NCBI RefSeq assembly: GCF_014696315.1
Contig: NZ_JACJPX010000079.1
Location: forward strand, 1 to 35,937
Direction of reading: 5' to 3'
DNA length: 35,937 nucleotides
Source of the DNA: Calothrix membranacea FACHB-236
GTDB taxonomy: Bacteria > Cyanobacteriota > Cyanobacteriia > Cyanobacteriales > Nostocaceae
Shown here: piece by piece, positions 19,262 to 27,683 of the stretch
Layout: each line of letters starts with the position of its first letter
Position numbering within the stretch: the stretch's first letter is position 1
Made by a program: the position numbers and the translations under genes
The notes under the pieces: generated by a model
Seen by the model: the letters and a program-made list of their open reading frames with translations, nothing else
Told to the model about the DNA's origin: nothing
The model's database searches: none

Positions 19262-19724
19262 TACTATAATCGGCGATGAGCTAGCAGCCAATAATTGGGG
19301 ATTTTAGATTTACCTTATACCTAAAATCCTTACCATTACCCAAATAGTTTCGATTTCCTGCTTCGTTGTTATACTGCTTGAAAATTACAGCAGAGAGGAA
19401 ATGGGTAAGGTACTTCATATAAATGGAATATTTTTGTAGTTGGAAGTCCTTAAAGTTGTGTGCATTGCAGCTAACTTCTAGATTAGGAATTTTTAATCCC
19501 TAAAATTTATCCGGCAACCTCGAGAACGCAAATGGGGATACAATGCTCTGTAGAGATTTAGAGCAATATTATTGTCAGGAATAATAGCACCAGTCATAGC
19601 AAAGACTTCGCGGTTGAGTATTTATAGCGAAAGTTTTGTAGCGTTTCCTAATCGAGATATTACTCGATATTCATTTTTGAGGTTGAAGGTTGGCAAATAT
19701 TACATAACGATCGCAAATAATCGC
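19262..19724. other. Upstream region of the permease pair
   Basis: It contains a single copy of the GGAATAT/GGAAGTCC core (19423-19450) and an inverted repeat ATCGAG-N6-CTCGAT (19651-19668), 57 bases before the permease ATG, which could be an operator. The frame that continues upstream of the permease from 19572 is unconserved. No perfect GTA-N8-TAC NtcA box is present here. Confidence 0.4.
19423..19450 (+). repeat. GGAATAT...GGAAGTCC core repeat
   Basis: ATGGAATATTTTTGTAGTTG followed by GAAGTCCT matches the cores at 242-270 (minus) and 34789-34817 (plus). This copy lacks the adjoining GTTGAC hairpin. Confidence 0.5.
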
Positions 19725-20774
19725 ATGAAATTTCTGCTACCAATCCTATCACCACTGATTGCTATTACATCTGCTCTACTCGTTGGTGCTATCCTCATCC
19801 TACTCGCTGGGGCAAATCCCCTCACCGCATACACAGCTTTATTTCAAGAATCCCTTTCCAGCTATTTTGGTTTTGGTAACACCCTCACCAAAATGACACC
19901 GCTATTATTCACCAGTTTGGGGGTATTGGTAGCATTACGAGCTGGGCAATTTAATATCGGTGGTGAAGGACAGATTTACTTAGGTGCGTTGGGGAGTACT
20001 TTAATTGGGTTATACGTGCAAGGATTACCTGCTGTAATTCATGTCCCCTTAGCACTGTTCGCCGGATTTCTGTTTGGTGCAGTTTGGGGTTGGATTCCCG
20101 GTTATCTCAAAGCTATACGGGGAGTGAATGAGGTAATTACGACGTTATTGCTAAATTACATCGCTGTGAATTTAGTTAGCTACCTCGTCCAGAATCCCTT
20201 AATGGCACCAGGCGCACCTAGTCCTTATTCGCCATTAATAGGCAAAACTGCCCGCCTAGCGATTATACTACCACAAAGCCTCGCCCATGCTGGGATTTTA
20301 TTAGCTTTACTTGCCGCTGGAATATTGTGGCTGTTGTTAGGGCGATCGCCTTTCGGATACCAAATCACCGCCGTGGGATTTAACCCCATCGCCGCCCGTT
20401 ATGCTCAAATGTCGGTAGAACGTACCATCATGCTGGTGATGGCGTTAGCGGGAGGTTTAGCTGGTTTAGCTGGCAGTTGTGAAGTAATGGGGTTGAAATA
20501 TCGGCTATTTGAACAGGTTTCCCCAGGTTATGGATTTGATGCCATTGCGATCGCATTTCTCAGCCGTGGTAGTGTGGTCGGTGTAGTGTTGACTTCGCTA
20601 TTTTTTGCGGCGTTGCGTAGTGGTGCGAATGTCATGCAGCGGAGTGCAGGTGTGCCGGTAACTGTGGTTTACGCGATTCAGGGTTTAGCAGTGTTGTTTA
20701 TTGCTATTAGTTTAGCTGTGGAAAGAGCAATCAGAGTAAAAACGCAGAGTAACGCCAAGGTTAACGCAGAGTAA
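19725..20774 (+). CDS. Nucleoside-type ABC transporter permease 1 (BPD_transp_2 family)
   Basis: The 349-residue membrane protein has about nine to ten hydrophobic segments and belongs to the permease family of BmpA-type nucleoside ABC importers (YufP/NupP-like). Typical blocks are LRAGQFNIGGEGQIYLGALG, GVNEVITTLLLNYIAV and ITAVGFNPIAARYAQM. I start it at the ATG at 19725, because homologues begin near this point; a frame from 19572 adds 51 unconserved residues. The last residues (KTQSNAKVNAE) are encoded by a tandem AACGCAGAGTAACGCCAAGG repeat, so the native C-terminus may have been replaced. It is followed by its partner permease. No ATPase or solute-binding gene of this system is adjacent. 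Confidence 0.87.
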   Translation: MKFLLPILSPLIAITSALLVGAILILLAGANPLTAYTALFQESLSSYFGFGNTLTKMTPLLFTSLGVLVALRAGQFNIGGEGQIYLGALGSTLIGLYVQGLPAVIHVPLALFAGFLFGAVWGWIPGYLKAIRGVNEVITTLLLNYIAVNLVSYLVQNPLMAPGAPSPYSPLIGKTARLAIILPQSLAHAGILLALLAAGILWLLLGRSPFGYQITAVGFNPIAARYAQMSVERTIMLVMALAGGLAGLAGSCEVMGLKYRLFEQVSPGYGFDAIAIAFLSRGSVVGVVLTSLFFAALRSGANVMQRSAGVPVTVVYAIQGLAVLFIAISLAVERAIRVKTQSNAKVNAE

Positions 20775-20940
20775 CGCCAAGAAAACTCTGCGATACTTTG
20801 TCTTAAAAAGTTGAGCCACTTGCTTGCGGGGGTTCCCTCCGTTGTGCAAAGTGGCGTTCCTACGCCGGGAAACCCGGCTTTCCTTCGGAACGCTTGCGCG
20901 AACGAGGAACTTTTCGCTGCCCTTTCCTTAGCGAACCTTG
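20758..20940. repeat. Repeat-rich spacer between the two permease genes
   Basis: It starts with a tandem AACGCAGAGTAACGCCAAG unit that overlaps the end of permease 1. Palindromic GC-rich modules follow, such as CCGGGAAACCCGG and CGGAACGCTTGCGCGAAC, of the type dispersed in Nostocales genomes. The spacer is 184 bases, long for a permease pair that in other bacteria is usually nearly contiguous. Confidence 0.65.
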
Positions 20941-20958
20941 GCGTTTCAAAATAGCTCT

Positions 20959-21897
20959 ATGAATGATCTCAATTTTTTCTCTGATTACTTAGTAGCAACA
21001 TTACGTCTAGCCGTACCCTTGGGATTTGCAGCCTTAGGCGGATTGTATTCGGAACGCTCAGGGGTGTTAAATATTGCCTTGGAAGGAATGTTATTGGCTG
21101 GGGCTTTTACGAGCGCTGTTGGTACTTTCTACAGTGGAAATCCTTGGCTGGGTGTCATAGCGGCTGTGATTGCTGGGGGATTGGTAGGGTTACTCCACGC
21201 TTTTTTATGTGTAACTTTGCGTGTTGACCAATTAGTATCTGGACTAGCAATTAATCTTGTCGCCGCCGGGTTAACATCATTTCTGGGAAGGTTGATATTT
21301 GGTGGTAGTAGTACACAGCAATTACCGGGAATTGGGACGATAATTACTCCTGGGTTGGCAAATATTCCCGTGATTGGGCCATTGTTATTTCAGCAAGATA
21401 TTTTAGTATATTTACTATTAATATTAGTGATTTTTACGACATATATATTATTCCAAACCGGCTTTGGGTTAACATTGCGGGCTGTGGGTGAATCGCCGCA
21501 AGCTGCTGATACTGCTGGAATTTCGGTGCAAAAGGTACGTTATCTTGCTGTAGTTATCAGCGGTTGTCTTGCTAGTTTGGGAGGTGCTTATTTAACCTTG
21601 GTACAGGTAAGATTCTTTGCCGAGGGGATGAGTGCAGGTAAAGGATTTATTGCGATCGCAGCTTTAATTTTTGGCAGATGGCATCCTATAGGTAGTGCGT
21701 TAGCTTGTTTGCTATTTGGCGCTACGGAAGCTTTGCAACTGCGAATTCAAGCATTAGGGGCAAATATACCTTACCAATTTTTAGTCATGCTACCTTATGC
21801 GATCGCTTTATTCGCATTGGTAGGATTAGCCGGGAAATCGACACCGCCCAAAGCCTTAGGTACTGCTTACTTTGGAGAAAATCGCCACTCAGATTAA
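20959..21897 (+). CDS. Nucleoside-type ABC transporter permease 2 (BPD_transp_2 family)
   Basis: The 312-residue protein has about eight to nine membrane segments and is the second permease of a BmpA-type nucleoside importer (YufQ/NupQ-like). Motifs are GGLYSERSGVLNIALEGMLL (near 30-49), LRVDQLVSGLAINL, LTLRAVGESPQAADTAGI and SAGKGFIAIAALIFGRWHP. I prefer the ATG at 20959; an in-frame TTG at 20938 lies in repeat sequence. Together with permease 1 it would form the channel of a purine/pyrimidine nucleoside importer. It converges on upp, 47 bases away, which supports a pyrimidine-scavenging role. Confidence 0.88.
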   Translation: MNDLNFFSDYLVATLRLAVPLGFAALGGLYSERSGVLNIALEGMLLAGAFTSAVGTFYSGNPWLGVIAAVIAGGLVGLLHAFLCVTLRVDQLVSGLAINLVAAGLTSFLGRLIFGGSSTQQLPGIGTIITPGLANIPVIGPLLFQQDILVYLLLILVIFTTYILFQTGFGLTLRAVGESPQAADTAGISVQKVRYLAVVISGCLASLGGAYLTLVQVRFFAEGMSAGKGFIAIAALIFGRWHPIGSALACLLFGATEALQLRIQALGANIPYQFLVMLPYAIALFALVGLAGKSTPPKALGTAYFGENRHSD

Positions 21898-21898
21898 T

Positions 21899-21944
21899 TA
21901 TTATTGGGCATGGGGCATTGGGCATGGGGCATTGGGCATTTTCC
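21899..21944. repeat. Tandem repeat (GGGCATTGGGCATGGGGCAT)
   Basis: Repeated GGGCATG/GGGCATT units fill the short gap between the convergent permease 2 and upp genes. Confidence 0.75.
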
Positions 21945-22586
21945 TTATTTTGTACCAAACAAGCGATCGCCTGCATCTCCTAAACCGGGGATAATATAAC
22001 CATGTTCATCCAAATAATCATCAATAGCAGCCGTATATAAAGGCACATCTGGATGTACTTCACAGAAATGCTTAATCCCTTCCGGTGCAGCCAATAAGCA
22101 GACAAACTTAATCGATAACGGATTAGTAGATTTCAACCTTTCCACCGCCGCCACCGCCGAATTACCCGTTGCTAACATCGGATCGACAACAATCATGTCT
22201 CGGTGTTCGACATCATGGGGAACCTTAAAATAATATTCCACAGGAATCAGAGTTTTTGGGTCACGATATAAGCCCACGTGTCCCACCCTAGCTGAGGGTA
22301 TCAACTCCAACATCCCATCTAAAATACCTTGTCCCGCCCGCATAATAGAAACTAAAACCAGCTTTTTATCCGGCGCAAGCACAGGCGCATTCATCGCGGC
22401 GAGAGGCGTTTGAATCTCTTCATATTTCACAGGTAAATCCCGCGTTACCTCATAAGCCAACAACAAACTAACTTCTTTAACAAGGTTACGAAACTTTGTT
22501 GTACTCGTCTCCGCGCGACGCATCAGCGTTAGTTTGTGCTGAATTAATGGATGTTCAATTAATGTGACTTGATTGGCAATTGTCAT
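21945..22586 (-). CDS. upp: Uracil phosphoribosyltransferase
   Basis: Upp makes UMP from uracil and PRPP. The 213-residue protein has the PRPP-binding motif [14 protein letters not shown] (131-144), the block [14 protein letters not shown] (79-92) and the uracil-binding C-terminus [16 protein letters not shown]. Length is normal. It is the last of three same-strand genes after URC1-like and URC4-like genes, a grouping that links it to uracil breakdown as well as salvage: in Lachancea kluyveri the uracil phosphoribosyltransferase is required for the URC pathway. A 131-base repeat-filled gap separates it from the URC4-like gene, so it could also have its own promoter. Confidence 0.95.
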
Positions 22587-22717
22587 TTGTTATTTGTTAT
22601 TTGTCATTTGTCATTTGTCATTTGTCATTTGGGGTTTGGGATTGGGTAAGAGTTAAGAGTTGAATAATAATTTTGAATTTTGAATTTTGAATTTTGAATT
22701 GATTTGTCCCCAATCCC
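22587..22717. repeat. Short tandem repeats (TTGTCAT, TTTTGAA)
   Basis: Runs of ATTTGTC, GTTATTT and TTTTGAAT units, plus AATCCCC, fill the whole gap between upp and the URC4-like gene, inside the presumed operon. Confidence 0.8.
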
Positions 22718-23971
22718 CTAGAATACCGTTCCATCACTTTCTATTTGTATGGGGGGTATCCCACCTGTTCTGAGTTCAGCAGCAATTTTGCGTCCGGCTG
22801 TCCAAGTTCCCCCTTGGAGGATTTTGACTAATGGTAGTTCTTCGGTACTCATACCCAACTTGTCGCGCACTGTCGTAGCAATCAAATCTAGAAGAATCAC
22901 AGTCAAAGCGCGCCATTCAACGATAATTTCTGATGCTACAGAGTGAGAAGTGCGGAAAATATCAGGGTTTTTTACAGTAATAAGTCCCAAATCAACGCAT
23001 AAACCCCCATTGCGATATTCTGGTAAACCAGTGAGTTGATCTAAACCAGTAATTGTTATACCTATTTCTTGTAAAGGTTCCAATAAAGAATATGTCAACC
23101 ACTGAGACAGCTTATGAAAAGGCACTAATCCATCATCATTGATAGCTGGATGTTGCCAGACATCACCTAAATTTACCCCAGCTATCTCTAATCTTCCCGG
23201 CCAAATATCACTCAGCCCTTCTAGGATTGCATCTAATACAGTAGCAGCAGCTAACTGTCTATTTTCTGACTTACCCAACAGATAATTCACTAAATTCCCT
23301 GGACGAGGATTGTGATATCCAAACAGATGGGGGAAAGTAACTATGACTTGTCCTAATTTTTGTAATAAATTCAATCTTCCCGTAATTCCCACTAAGGGAT
23401 TTTCCCCATTGACTTGAAAACCAGTTGCTAGTTCTGCTTCAGTTAATCTTTGTAAGCGATAAGCATCAGCCTGGGGTAAGCAATTAAGTGCAAAATTACC
23501 TTCACAAAACATCCGGAAACTAGCCACAGCCAAGCCTTCAGAACGCCCCAATCTTAAACCAGTTTCCAGCTCATCATAATGCCACTTATCACCAGCACCG
23601 GCATCTAACAGTACACTCACAATCGCCAAATCAAACTTAGCCGCCGCCTTATCAGCAGGGGATAATCCCACTAACTGAGGATCTAAATTCGCTACCCGCT
23701 TGACACCCCCAACCTCAAAATGTCGCCAACGGCTGTGAAAGGGAATATCTAAATTTGGGTATTCTGTGCGGATTACCTCAATCACATAATCCGCAACCTT
23801 TCCCAACTGCGTCAAATCGCAAGCAAAATTCTCTGAGTTACCCTCACACACCCAAGAAAACAATTGCCCACATCGTTCCCGAATCGCCTCTGGAGAACGA
23901 AGATATCTCACAATCTCTTCTTCTTTCTCTTGTCTTTGTGTACTTTGCGCCTTCGCGGTTCGTCTATCCAC
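22718..23971 (-). CDS. URC4: URC4-like uracil catabolism protein (DUF1688)
   Basis: The 417-residue protein belongs to DUF1688, the family of yeast URC4, which is required genetically for growth on uracil as nitrogen source; its reaction is not firmly known. Recognisable blocks are YLRSPEAIRERCGQLFSW (23-40), VLLDAGAGDKWHYDE, GRSEGLAVASFRMF, PHLFGYHNPRPGNLVNYLL, and the end GTWTAGRKIAAELRTGGIPP. The start is a GTG at 23971 with a perfect AGGAGG (23978-23983) six bases ahead. The first 20 residues (DRRTAKAQSTQRQEKEEE) look like translated repeat DNA and may not be native. It lies between upp and the URC1-like gene on one strand. Confidence 0.88.
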   Translation of the reverse strand: MDRRTAKAQSTQRQEKEEEIVRYLRSPEAIRERCGQLFSWVCEGNSENFACDLTQLGKVADYVIEVIRTEYPNLDIPFHSRWRHFEVGGVKRVANLDPQLVGLSPADKAAAKFDLAIVSVLLDAGAGDKWHYDELETGLRLGRSEGLAVASFRMFCEGNFALNCLPQADAYRLQRLTEAELATGFQVNGENPLVGITGRLNLLQKLGQVIVTFPHLFGYHNPRPGNLVNYLLGKSENRQLAAATVLDAILEGLSDIWPGRLEIAGVNLGDVWQHPAINDDGLVPFHKLSQWLTYSLLEPLQEIGITITGLDQLTGLPEYRNGGLCVDLGLITVKNPDIFRTSHSVASEIIVEWRALTVILLDLIATTVRDKLGMSTEELPLVKILQGGTWTAGRKIAAELRTGGIPPIQIESDGTVF

Positions 23972-23999
23972 TCTTCACCTCCTAAATTAAGGATGAAGT

Positions 24000-24052
24000 A
24001 TCAAGGCTTAACACCCTTCACTCTTCATCCTTCATCCTTCACCCTTTACCCT
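24000..24052. repeat. Short tandem repeats (CTTCATC, CTTTACC)
   Basis: CTTCATC/CTTCACC/CTTTACC units fill the gap between the URC4-like start and the URC1-like stop. Confidence 0.7.
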
Positions 24053-25312
24053 TTATCCTTCCAAATCTCGCCCCTTCACCTCACCTAAACTTTCCGCGTC
24101 TAACACATCACCTGTGGTGTAGTAGCCAGCCGCCTTCTTCGCCTCAATTTCCACCCGTGCATCTTGGGGAATCAAATCTTCTGGGATGGGTACCCGTTCG
24201 ACAATTTCAATCCCCGATTGGGTGATGGCGTTGTACTTCATATTACTCATTGATACCATGCGGTCGATACGGGTAATACCTAACCAATGCAATACATCGG
24301 GCATCAATTCTTGGAAGCGCATATCTTGCACACCCGCCACGCATTCTGTACGGGCAAAGTAGGCATCAGCGCGATCGCCTCCTTCTTGTCGCTTCCTGGC
24401 ATTGTAAACTAAGAATTTGGTAACTTCTCCTAAAGCACGTCCTTCTTTGCGGCAGTAGACAATCACACCCACGCCGCCTTCCTGTGCAGTTTGGACGCAG
24501 ACTTCAATCCCATGTACTAAATAAGGGCGACAGGTACAGATATCGGAACCAAAGACATCAGAACCGTTACATTCATCATGTACCCGCACAGCTAGCGGTT
24601 TATTGGGATCTGCGATCGCTGCCATATCACCGACAATGTAAACTGTAAGACCGCCAATTGGTGGCAAAAAGACTTCCAAATCAGAACGCGTCACCAATTC
24701 AGGGAACATCCCCCCAGTTTGTTCAAATAAGGCGCGGCGTAAGTCGGTTTCTTGAATACCAAACCGCTTGGCAATTCCTGGTAAATACCAAACTGGCTCA
24801 ATTGCTGCCTTGGTAACGACCAAATCACCGCCTGGTTTCATAATTTTGCCATCCACCCGCAGCCGCCCCTTATCTACCGCTTCTTGCAGTTCCGGCATAT
24901 TAATATGAGCCTGAGTAATCGCAATTGTCGGGCGAATGTCATAACCTTGGGCGTAATAGGAGGCAAACACCTCACTAGCTACTGCCCCAAAGGGGTCAAG
25001 AGAAACAATTTTATCAGGATCGGCCCAACTAGGATGGGGGCCAATATGGGTAACGGGCGAGGTGTTAGTTAAATCGGCGCGATGATCTGACTGTAAAGCA
25101 CCGCTAGCCACCGCTAAAGCACGATAGACAGCATAACTACCGGAATGGGTGCCAATCACATTTCGGTGTGCTTGCTTGGTCAAAGTGGCAATGATTGGGC
25201 CACGTTCCATAGGATCAGCTGCTCCCCAATGAATGGGGGTTGGTTTGGGGCCAAAACTATTGGGATGGGATGTGAGAACAATATGCCTGGAAACACTATT
25301 TGGCTTTGGCAT
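24053..25312 (-). CDS. URC1: URC1-like GTP cyclohydrolase II paralogue
   Basis: The C-terminal half (about 200-385) is a GTP cyclohydrolase II domain. It has the zinc ligands C248, C259 and C261 in ECNGSDVFGSDICTC, RKEGRALGE (288-296) and Y303 at the place of the E. coli RibA catalytic tyrosine. The N-terminal 200 residues are an extension absent from riboflavin RibA, and the 419-residue layout matches yeast URC1 and its bacterial relatives. The RibA loop NNPKK is replaced by SNMKY, which argues for a substrate other than GTP. Riboflavin synthesis is therefore unlikely to be its job. It is first of three genes leading to URC4-like and upp. A GTA-N8-TAC box with a -10 element lies upstream. 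Confidence 0.87.
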   Translation of the reverse strand: MPKPNSVSRHIVLTSHPNSFGPKPTPIHWGAADPMERGPIIATLTKQAHRNVIGTHSGSYAVYRALAVASGALQSDHRADLTNTSPVTHIGPHPSWADPDKIVSLDPFGAVASEVFASYYAQGYDIRPTIAITQAHINMPELQEAVDKGRLRVDGKIMKPGGDLVVTKAAIEPVWYLPGIAKRFGIQETDLRRALFEQTGGMFPELVTRSDLEVFLPPIGGLTVYIVGDMAAIADPNKPLAVRVHDECNGSDVFGSDICTCRPYLVHGIEVCVQTAQEGGVGVIVYCRKEGRALGEVTKFLVYNARKRQEGGDRADAYFARTECVAGVQDMRFQELMPDVLHWLGITRIDRMVSMSNMKYNAITQSGIEIVERVPIPEDLIPQDARVEIEAKKAAGYYTTGDVLDAESLGEVKGRDLEG

Positions 25313-25431
25313 AGATTACTTGGTTTTTTTTGTGATGTTTTTATCAACTGTTAGTTAACATGTTTTGTCAACTACCAAAAGTCAGCTGCTATTTTTAAAT
25401 TTATGATGTCCTAACGACTAATTATCTATAA

Positions 25432-25472
25432 ATTTTACGCTAAAGACCAGTACTAATAGTATTACTGAATAC
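25432..25472 (-). promoter_or_regulatory. Predicted NtcA-activated promoter of the URC operon
   Basis: GTATTACTGAATAC at 25459-25472 fits the NtcA consensus GTA-N8-TAC. On the minus strand it is followed after 21 bases by TAAAAT (25437-25432), which fits the TAN3T -10 element of class II NtcA-activated promoters. A start of transcription near 25425 would give a leader of about 113 bases for the URC1-like gene. On the plus strand TAAATT (25498-25503) follows at 25 bases, slightly outside the usual spacing, so the box might also serve the divergent genes. Confidence 0.65.
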
Positions 25473-25605
25473 ATAAAAAATGTAACACGTAAAACGTTAA
25501 ATTTGTAACTCTAATTAAGAGAATTTAAAGATGACTTTAAATATGTTTAAGTAGAGATTTTTGTGCGACAGTTGATATATACATACATTTACCTAGACCG
25601 AATTT

Positions 25606-26076
25606 ATGGATTCTTTATCTATCAGCTCTTTACTTGAAGATTTGAAAAATTCAGATGCTACAGTCCGGGAACAAGCGACTAAGAAAATCTGGCGCATCTG
25701 GTTTCAACAAAAAGGCATTTATGGGCTGGAGAAAATTGACCACAGTCAGAAATTACTGGATGCTGGGGAAACTACTGAAGCTGAAGAAGTGCTAACAAGA
25801 TTAATTAACGAACAACCAGATTTTGCTGAAGCTTGGAATCGTCGTGCTTTTCTTTACTACAGCATGGGTAATTATCAAAAGTCCCTAGCAGATTGTCAGA
25901 TGGTTGTGAATCTCAATCCTGTACATTTTGGCGCACTCCACGGTATGGGCTTATGTTATGCAGCTTTAGGCAAATATAGTGAAGCAATTCAAGCTTTTCA
26001 GCGTGCTTTAGCCATTCAACCCTATTCACTGGTGAACCAAAAGTTAATTCTGGAATGTACATTCAGAATCAGCTAA
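25606..26076 (+). CDS. TPR protein
   Basis: The 156-residue protein opens with a short helical segment (MDSLSISSLLEDLKNSDATV) and then has about three tetratricopeptide repeats (roughly 45-145), for example AEAWNRRAFLYYSMGNYQKS and GALHGMGLCYAALGKYSEAI. It has no signal peptide and is probably a cytoplasmic adaptor. It is divergent from the URC1-like gene and lies 33 bases before the solute-binding protein gene, so the two are probably co-transcribed. Similar small TPR proteins are widespread in cyanobacteria; no specific partner is known to me. Confidence 0.82.
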   Translation: MDSLSISSLLEDLKNSDATVREQATKKIWRIWFQQKGIYGLEKIDHSQKLLDAGETTEAEEVLTRLINEQPDFAEAWNRRAFLYYSMGNYQKSLADCQMVVNLNPVHFGALHGMGLCYAALGKYSEAIQAFQRALAIQPYSLVNQKLILECTFRIS

Positions 26077-26109
26077 AACACCCCAGTCAATAGAGCCTTA
26101 TTTTATCCC

Positions 26110-27174
26110 ATGAATCAGCCGCCATCAGCATCAGCAACATTTGATAACCTGAATCGCCGCCAATTTCTTCAGTATGCTTCCTTATGTATAAGTAGTAGCA
26201 TCGTGAGTGCCTGTGCTAATAGCAACTCTGAAAAAATTACACCTTCTGGGTTAGATAAAGTAACCTTTGGTACAAATTGGTTAGCGCAAGCAGAACACGG
26301 CGGATTTTATCAGGCGATCGCAACTGGAATTTACAAAAACCACGGTCTTGATGTCACCATTAAAATGGGTGGCCCGCAAGTACCTAGTGGTACCCAGTTA
26401 TTGATGGGTGGTGCAGTAGATTTTTTCATGGGTTTTGGTATTGATGCTATCAATGCAGTTGCACAAAGCATTCCCAAAATTACCGTAGCAGCAATCTTTC
26501 AAAAAGACCCTCAATGTATCATTACCCATCCCAACACAGCAATTAAAACTCTTGCCGACCTCAAAGGCAAACCGATTTATGTATCAGCTGCTGCAAACGT
26601 TACTTATTGGCCACTGCTAAAAGCTAAGTATGGTTTTACCGACGCACAAAAACGCCCTTACAACTTCAATCCCGCACCCTTTTTGGCTGACAAAACCTCA
26701 GTGCAACAAGGGTATATCACTTCAGAACCATTCGCGGTTGAAAAGCAAGGTGGTTTTAAACCGATAGTGTTTTTACTAGCAGATTATGGTTATTCCACAT
26801 ACGCAACCACAATTGAGACAAAGAAAGAATTAGTAGACAAAAATCCCGACTTAGTGACACGCTTTGTTGATGCCTCAATTAAGGGCTGGTATAGTTACTT
26901 AGAAAATCCTCAACCAGGTAATGATTTAATCAAGAAAGCAAATCCAGAAATGACAGATGAGCAGTTAGCTTATAGCCTTACCAAACTCAAAGAATATGGA
27001 ATCGTGATTTCTGATACTGCAGAAAAACTCGGTATTGGCGCTATGAGTGAGGCTAGATGGAAATTACTATTTGACAATATGGTGCAGTCTGGAATTGCTC
27101 AGTCTAATGTTAAGTATCAAGAATCATTTACCCTACGATTTGTCAATAAAGGTGTAGAGTATTACAGAGCGTGA
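26110..27174 (+). CDS. NMT1/THI5-type ABC transporter solute-binding lipoprotein
   Basis: The 354-residue protein has a twin-arginine-like signal (NRRQFLQYASLC, 15-26) that ends in a lipobox VSAC with C35, so it is an exported lipoprotein. The mature part is an NMT1/THI5-like type 2 periplasmic binding domain: FGTNWLAQAEHGGFYQAIAT, GLDVTIKMGGPQVPSGTQLL, LADLKGKPIYVS and a long TSEPFAVEKQGG region. Family members bind pyrimidine-like compounds (thiamine precursors, pyrimidines) or taurine and nitrate-like ligands. Being divergent from the URC operon it may capture a pyrimidine. No cognate permease or ATPase lies next to it. The last codons run into a repeat. Confidence 0.88.
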   Translation: MNQPPSASATFDNLNRRQFLQYASLCISSSIVSACANSNSEKITPSGLDKVTFGTNWLAQAEHGGFYQAIATGIYKNHGLDVTIKMGGPQVPSGTQLLMGGAVDFFMGFGIDAINAVAQSIPKITVAAIFQKDPQCIITHPNTAIKTLADLKGKPIYVSAAANVTYWPLLKAKYGFTDAQKRPYNFNPAPFLADKTSVQQGYITSEPFAVEKQGGFKPIVFLLADYGYSTYATTIETKKELVDKNPDLVTRFVDASIKGWYSYLENPQPGNDLIKKANPEMTDEQLAYSLTKLKEYGIVISDTAEKLGIGAMSEARWKLLFDNMVQSGIAQSNVKYQESFTLRFVNKGVEYYRA

Positions 27175-27299
27175 GGGATTGGGGACTGGGGACTGGGGAC
27201 TGGGGACTGGGGATTGGGAAGATGAGGGGAATGAGGGAGATGAGGAAGCAGCAGAGAAATTCCAATTACCCATTACCGATTACCAATTACCGATTTCCT
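27175..27299. repeat. Short tandem repeats (GGGGACT, GATGAGG, CAATTAC)
   Basis: GGGGACT units, GATGAGG units and CAATTACC/CGATTACC units separate the solute-binding gene from the broken HisJ-type gene and abut the latter's 5' end. Confidence 0.8.
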
Positions 27300-27683
27300 A
27301 AACGAAAAATATTAACCTTGCTGTTTGCCGCAATGGTGATTATCAGTATTGTCACAGGTCAAAGCCATTCTCTCAACGCGGCTTCGTCTGTAGGCAAAGA
27401 TCCGCTGATATTGATTACTTCGCCAAATTATCCCCCTTATGAGTTCTATGATACTCAAGGAGGCGATCGCCAAATTGTTGGCTTTGATATCGATATTGCT
27501 AAAAGTCGGGCGCAAAAACTGGGGTTTAAACTCCAGGTGATGGAATCCGATTTTAATGGCTTAATCCCTGCACTCCAAGCCAATCGCGCTGATTTTGTGA
27601 TGGCGGGGATGACTCCCAACCCAGAACGCAAGAAAAATGTGGATTTACCGATAATTAATTATCTTAAATTTTTTAAACAATAA
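27300..27683 (+). pseudogene. Truncated amino-acid ABC transporter binding protein (HisJ/GlnH type)
   Basis: The frame encodes a signal peptide-like segment (KILTLLFAAMVIISIVTG) followed by the N-terminal lobe of a family 3 binding protein: LILITSPNYPPYEFYD, VGFDIDIAKSRAQKLGFKL, ESDFNGLIPALQANRADFVM and GMTPNPERKKNVD. It then stops after LPIINYLKFFKQ, where intact members of about 260 residues continue with the second lobe. The 5' end merges with tandem repeats and no good start remains. With half the ligand-binding fold missing it cannot work as a normal binding protein. It is likely a relic of an amino-acid importer. Confidence 0.75.

Follow-up and report, generated by a model that had tools for sequence, protein, structure and literature searches.

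The locus considered here raises the question of whether a cyanobacterium can break uracil down for nitrogen and, if so, which reaction is carried out by URC4, a DUF1688 protein and the least explained component of the URC pathway. Many fungi and bacteria are said to share a conserved URC gene trio (excerpt of PMC3869809); the yeast pathway yields 3-hydroxypropionate and ribosylurea from uracil through URC1 and URC6, and the ribosylurea is then converted to urea by URC4 (excerpt of PMC7530994). The window, i.e. the whole stretch of 35,937 nucleotides that was analysed, lies on contig C142 of the 8.81 Mb genome of Calothrix membranacea FACHB-236, and the locus found in it is a cyanobacterial member of this known pathway. 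Its features are the following:

19572..20774, plus strand: ABC permease 1, nucleoside/BmpA type (BPD_transp_2, PF02653)
20938..21897, plus strand: ABC permease 2, of the same transporter as permease 1 (BPD_transp_2, PF02653)
21945..22586, minus strand: uracil phosphoribosyltransferase, UPRT (upp; URC6/urg2 counterpart; PF14681, TIGR01091)
22718..23971, minus strand: URC4 (DUF1688; PF07958), predicted N-glycosidase with a predicted Qng1/DUF2419 fold
24053..25312, minus strand: URC1 (NF005536, PF12471 and PF00925), probable UTP/uracil-nucleotide cyclohydrolase of the GTP cyclohydrolase II superfamily (PRK07198/NF005536)
25432..25437, minus strand: TAAAAT, a -10 type box in the URC1 direction, 21 nt from the NtcA-type site
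25459..25472, no strand: NtcA-type palindrome GTATTACTGAATAC, motif in the divergent URC1/TPR promoter
25606..26076, plus strand: TPR-repeat protein gene, first divergent gene
26110..27174, plus strand: NMT1/THI5-type binding protein (NMT1, PF09084), second divergent gene
27171..27683, plus strand: short SBP_bac_3 protein, matched over model positions 1-78 of 132 only

The three uracil genes and their partnership

URC1, URC4 and UPRT are intact, adjoining and all on the minus strand; open reading frames, strands and family models agree with the preliminary description of three same-strand genes for a GTP cyclohydrolase II paralogue, a DUF1688 protein and a UPRT, and in the profile searches that it had proposed the three proteins match the UPRT, DUF1688 and URC1-type models over their cut-offs (for UPRT, PF14681 at E 8.7e-76 and TIGR01091 at 267.3 bits, cut-off 208.35). 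The two permeases do converge on the trio, as had been said, both being plus-strand BPD_transp_2 proteins; permease 1 is a real open reading frame, but the start assigned to it at 19725 is later than the TTG at 19572 with which the frame opens under the start rule of the ORF tool. Likewise, the NMT1-type gene diverges from the trio in the orientation described, but it stands second, behind a TPR gene that had gone unmentioned. A promoter and terminator scan of positions 21800-22100 found nothing. The closest named locus is that of Nostoc linckia FACHB-104, with a URC4 identity of 96%.

The 200-residue N-terminal extension ascribed to the cyclohydrolase is the GTP_CH_N domain (PF12471, residues 10-198); it is followed by GTP_cyclohydro2 (PF00925, residues 228-375), over its cut-off. 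The presence of this second domain, the name "GTP cyclohydrolase II" borne by the family in NCBIfam and in plasmid annotations, and the retention of catalytic RibA residues would all suit a riboflavin- or deazaflavin-type GTP cyclohydrolase placed beside UPRT by accident; indeed C248, C259, C261, Tyr303, Asp330 and Arg332, positioned from the alignment with RibA 2BZ0, are invariant in 71 of the 71 homologues aligned over at least 300 columns, and we take the three cysteines to be the zinc ligands, and the Tyr and Arg the catalytic residues, of RibA. The scores speak against this identity: URC1 reaches 780.6 bits on its own model NF005536 (cut-off 403) and 59 bits on the ribA model TIGR00505 (cut-off 205.85), the RibBA models failing likewise, while the one other GTP cyclohydrolase II match of the genome, separate and better (contig C127, 251.9 bits), shares only 31% identity with it over 151 aa. 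Moreover, URC1 is 69-70% identical to the URC1 proteins of the Azospirillum, Cupriavidus, Gordonia and Pseudoroseomonas gene groups and is constantly partnered with URC4. A grouping of the cyclohydrolase with riboflavin RibA, the outcome named as a refutation in the preliminary description, thus fails on scores; by these scores URC1 is not riboflavin RibA, and an accidental riboflavin- or deazaflavin-type enzyme is given next to no probability.

The closest solved proteins are 7EJ3 and 7EEV (668 bits, with 7EJ3 aligned along almost the entire protein), which were deposited under the name GTP cyclohydrolase II and share with RibA and URC1 the zinc cysteines, the Tyr and the Arg, whereas RibA 2BZ0 itself is matched with only 46 bits. 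These are presumably the entries behind a paper titled UTP cyclohydrolase, so that UTP may be the substrate opened, and the breakdown of uracil "via UMP", as previously put, is doubtful.

DUF1688/URC4 is present in 33 of the 386 sampled genomes of the phylum, and URC1, counted at E<=1e-100 so that broken copies are left out, in 30, all of them within the 33; in the remaining three, URC4 is partial or carries stops, and two of these also have URC1 in pieces. Such joint presence and joint decay point to cooperation between the two proteins. The neighbourhood survey, also proposed earlier, covered 80 named URC4 loci and found full-length URC1 in the fetched flanks of 66 (two more with short pieces only) and full-length UPRT in those of 58, where some flanks end at contig ends and several sampled genomes recur among the loci, the counts being not fully independent. 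A TPR homologue is found at 34 of the 80 loci and is divergent from URC1 at 29 of these. A chance neighbourhood of the URC genes was considered and rejected, their order being kept far beyond chance across the 80 loci.

Some further observations concern single groups of genomes. Broken or fragmentary copies of URC1, URC4 or UPRT occur at L052, L059, L060, L062, L131 and L134, which looks like ongoing loss of the pathway in several genomes. In Microcoleus-like genomes (L043, L044, L052, L059, L060; L110, L112, L114, L115, L134), an amidohydrolase, cytosine-deaminase-like by eye, and a nucleotide-cyclase-like protein are encoded near URC1, an arrangement that would fit a feeding of cytosine into the URC route. 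A short protein (DUF2294-like by eye) follows UPRT at 13 of the 80 loci, e.g. L074:10958-11395. A Rhizobium leguminosarum plasmid carries a diverged URC1 paralogue (L150:7920-9119), 54% identical, which possibly represents a different cyclohydrolase subfamily; the 17 kb fetched there contain neither a URC4 nor a UPRT match.

URC4 and the Qng1 fold

URC4 (417 aa) matches PF07958 over the full model (E 1.6e-152, 508.6 bits, cut-off 25). Its predicted fold is that of Qng1/DUF2419, with an hhalign probability of only 78, derived from few and similar sequences. Set A2 comprised 31 sequences, one from the window and the others from 30 of the named loci (80 in all); L108 was left out because its stated range contains a stop. 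K287 and E318 of URC4 take the positions of Lys199 and Asp231 of Qng1 (7U07 numbering), catalytic-site residues which are both mutated in solved entries; the Lys is kept, the Asp is replaced by Glu, and two motifs, LT...(D/E)Y and E(L/W)RA.T, are common to the two proteins. The window's URC4 gives no match to PF10343 even at E<=10, eight other members being likewise unmatched, and among URC4 relatives the best of the 10 matches listed has 20.2 bits, below the cut-off of 25, the L085 match covering another region. Searching PDB sequences with a URC4 profile gave no hit, whereas the predicted fold did lead to Qng1; a literature search, whose coverage was without many journals, found no link of DUF1688/Urc4 to DUF2419/Qng1.

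From queuosine and from queuosine monophosphate, Qng1 splits off the base (excerpt of PMC11130926). Sharing with this queuosine(-5'-phosphate) N-glycosidase the predicted fold, the catalytic-site Lys and the two motifs, URC4 looks like a bond-cutting enzyme, a predicted N-glycosidase related to the queuine-salvage enzyme of animals; it differs from Qng1/DUF2419 in falling below the Pfam cut-off, in the Glu in place of D231, in its greater length and in its position among uracil genes. The reaction scheme would be closed by a Qng1-like N-glycosidase whose substrate is ribosylurea, probably in its 5'-phosphorylated form; the least explained protein of the pathway would then have an assigned fold, a reaction and a probable active site, each open to direct testing.

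Nitrogen-type promoter, import genes and fate of urea

NtcA is the global nitrogen regulator of cyanobacteria, and the promoters that it activates have the consensus GTAN8TAC with TAN3T 20-24 nt downstream. The 293 bp between the divergent URC1 and TPR genes contain the palindrome at 25459-25472 and a TAN3T box at 21 nt on the URC1 side (the TAAAAT above), the nearest on the TPR side being at 25 nt; the promoter of the window fits the NtcA-activated pattern. GTAN8TAC is present in 26 of the 30 divergent URC1/TPR regions (the window and the 29 of 80 loci in which both genes are divergent), where GTA ranks first of the 64 palindromic triplets (26 regions; next triplet 19), other spacings (5 to 12) of the GTA palindrome occur in 2 to 8 regions, and the GTA/TAC half-sites form a conserved island within a diverged alignment. 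On both sides of the site TAN3T boxes peak at 21-23 nt; among the 26 promoters, a box at 20-24 nt is found towards URC1 in 15, towards TPR in 14 and on both sides in 7; judged by other positions, about 2.8 and 3.8 would be expected towards URC1 and TPR, respectively, and other offsets show smaller or single equal peaks (6 at 55 nt towards URC1). A wider test of 63 of the 80 loci gave 25 with the site against 5.3 expected from base shuffles, the promoter loci being related and their counts not independent. Where the TPR arrangement is lacking, the site occurs about as seldom as expected by chance, and the whole window holds 14 GTAN8TAC matches; since the site is rare outside TPR loci and single matches are common, the case for NtcA rests on conservation among related genomes. 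The conserved motif suggests that NtcA binds between URC1 and TPR, which would connect the recycling of pyrimidines with global nitrogen control and add nucleotides to the possible nitrogen sources.

The import genes are scattered over the genome. Permease 1 is 42% identical over 284 aa, and permease 2 38% over 308 aa, to permeases of the Azospirillum URC gene group; within the window no ATPase or binding protein stands beside them, and the best BMP (72%) and ATPase (73%) matches lie on contig C101 of the same genome, together with DoxX-like and AllA-like genes (L152:955-9046 and L154:2211-3695). The full set (permease 2, permease 1, ATPase, BMP) stands beside the URC genes at only 10 of the 80 loci. 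As to the NMT1 protein, whose N-terminus shows, by eye, RRQFLQ and a lipobox-like SAC, the ATPase and permease that follow its gene in Nostoc linckia sit in this genome at the end of contig C5 (L167:5595-7299), the permease being 98% identical to that of Nostoc linckia; they are likely the partners of the window's protein. Synteny with Nostoc linckia stops just past NMT1, at about 27185, with the short SBP_bac_3 protein at the break. With the remaining parts of both transporters on contigs C101 and C5, the locus cannot be called self-contained, as it had been, though the genome holds the parts. Uracil or nucleosides are the putative substrates of the BmpA-type transporter; some of the nearest solved relatives of the NMT1 protein carry names that refer to the binding or making of thiamin-precursor pyrimidines. 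The same BMP, DoxX-like, AllA-like and ATPase genes were also seen near the URC cluster in several Calothrix- and Tolypothrix-named genomes, and the NMT1 gene is short or in several pieces at L068, L088, L090, L091 and L095, the adjoining TPR gene being full length.

The genome has a urease alpha match (contig C154), as have 29 of the 30 URC1 genomes; the exception, G338, carries a 1214-aa frame with a CT_C_D domain, as in urea carboxylase, a type of frame present in 6 of the 30. All 30 can thus probably dispose of urea, which is consistent with the pathway but no proof of it, because urease is common in the phylum (over cut-off in 208 of the 386 genomes). As for the Rut pathway, no RutA was found over the cut-off (best match 165.6 against 498.3 bits).

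Proposed route and comparison with known systems

In the proposed route, uracil or nucleosides would enter via the BmpA-type ABC transporter, both permeases of which are encoded at the locus; UPRT would make UMP from uracil, and cellular kinases are able to phosphorylate this UMP further to UTP; URC1, which has the metal site and the catalytic Tyr and Arg of RibA, would open the uracil ring, so that C4-C6 leave as a three-carbon acid (in yeast, 3-hydroxypropionate) and (phospho)ribosylurea remains; URC4, as a Qng1-like N-glycosidase, would cut the N-C1' bond to give urea and ribose (phosphate); and urease would free ammonia, the genes being switched on by NtcA under nitrogen shortage. The genes, the predicted fold, the conserved residues, the co-occurrence and the promoter motif are observed, whereas we infer the substrate of URC1, the phosphorylated substrate of URC4 and its bond cleavage, the specificity of transport, the binding of NtcA, and growth on uracil. 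URC-type uracil catabolism, the function first proposed for this region, is well supported by the family models, the co-occurrence, the probable urea-consuming enzymes, the nucleoside-type ABC genes next to the trio in some relatives and in Azospirillum, and the NtcA-type promoter; a nitrogen-scavenging URC locus following this route is given a probability of roughly 0.8. Somewhat less assured, although still favoured, is the joint reading that DUF1688/URC4 is a metabolic N-glycosidase of Qng1/helix-hairpin-helix DNA glycosylase descent acting on phosphoribosylurea, and that the uracil-to-urea route of Nostocales is a member of the NtcA regulon by which nucleotides are mined for nitrogen.

Two other explanations accept the trio as a URC cluster and differ in its purpose or its chemistry. 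The genes might serve the turnover of uridine nucleotides or damage control (excess UTP, uracil analogues) and not nitrogen nutrition, in line with fission yeast, where the urg trio is induced by uracil and the urg1 deletion grows as wild type with and without uracil (excerpt of PMC2174524); the conservation of the NtcA-type promoter in related loci, the presence in all 30 URC1 genomes of an enzyme that probably consumes urea, and the import genes beside the cluster at 10 of the 80 loci and in Azospirillum make this improbable. With Glu at the position of Qng1 D231, the chemistry of URC4 could differ, and the protein might combine the Qng1 fold with, for example, a ureido hydrolase or lyase activity on an open-chain intermediate, urea being freed by the AllA-like protein (ureidoglycolate lyase family), whose gene lies in the flanks of 12 of the 80 loci and whose family occurs in 26 of the 30 URC1 genomes. 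That family is widespread without URC (94 of the 386 genomes), and for this reason the AllA-like lyase is not claimed as a URC component; moreover, the Lys and the overall predicted fold are kept in URC4, and the yeast protein is reported to turn ribosylurea into urea (excerpt of PMC7530994), so that a different chemistry is also considered unlikely. The nitrogen-scavenging route with URC4 as a predicted N-glycosidase is preferred to both.

Compared with known systems, the locus has the same three clustered families as the URC genes of Lachancea (Saccharomyces) kluyveri and urg1-urg2-urg3 of Schizosaccharomyces pombe (GTP cyclohydrolase II-like URC1/urg1, DUF1688 URC4/urg3, UPRT URC6/urg2), and in both yeasts, as here, a urea-using enzyme is found in the genome; it differs from them in its bacterial ABC import genes, in the NtcA-type promoter that takes the place of a zinc-finger regulator, and in urease instead of urea amidolyase. 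On plasmid p4 of Azospirillum brasilense (NZ_CP032343.1), the order URC1-URC4-upp is the same as here and the genes for BMP, ATPase and two permeases adjoin it, whereas in Calothrix the two permease genes converge on the trio, and contig C101 carries the best ATPase and BMP genes.
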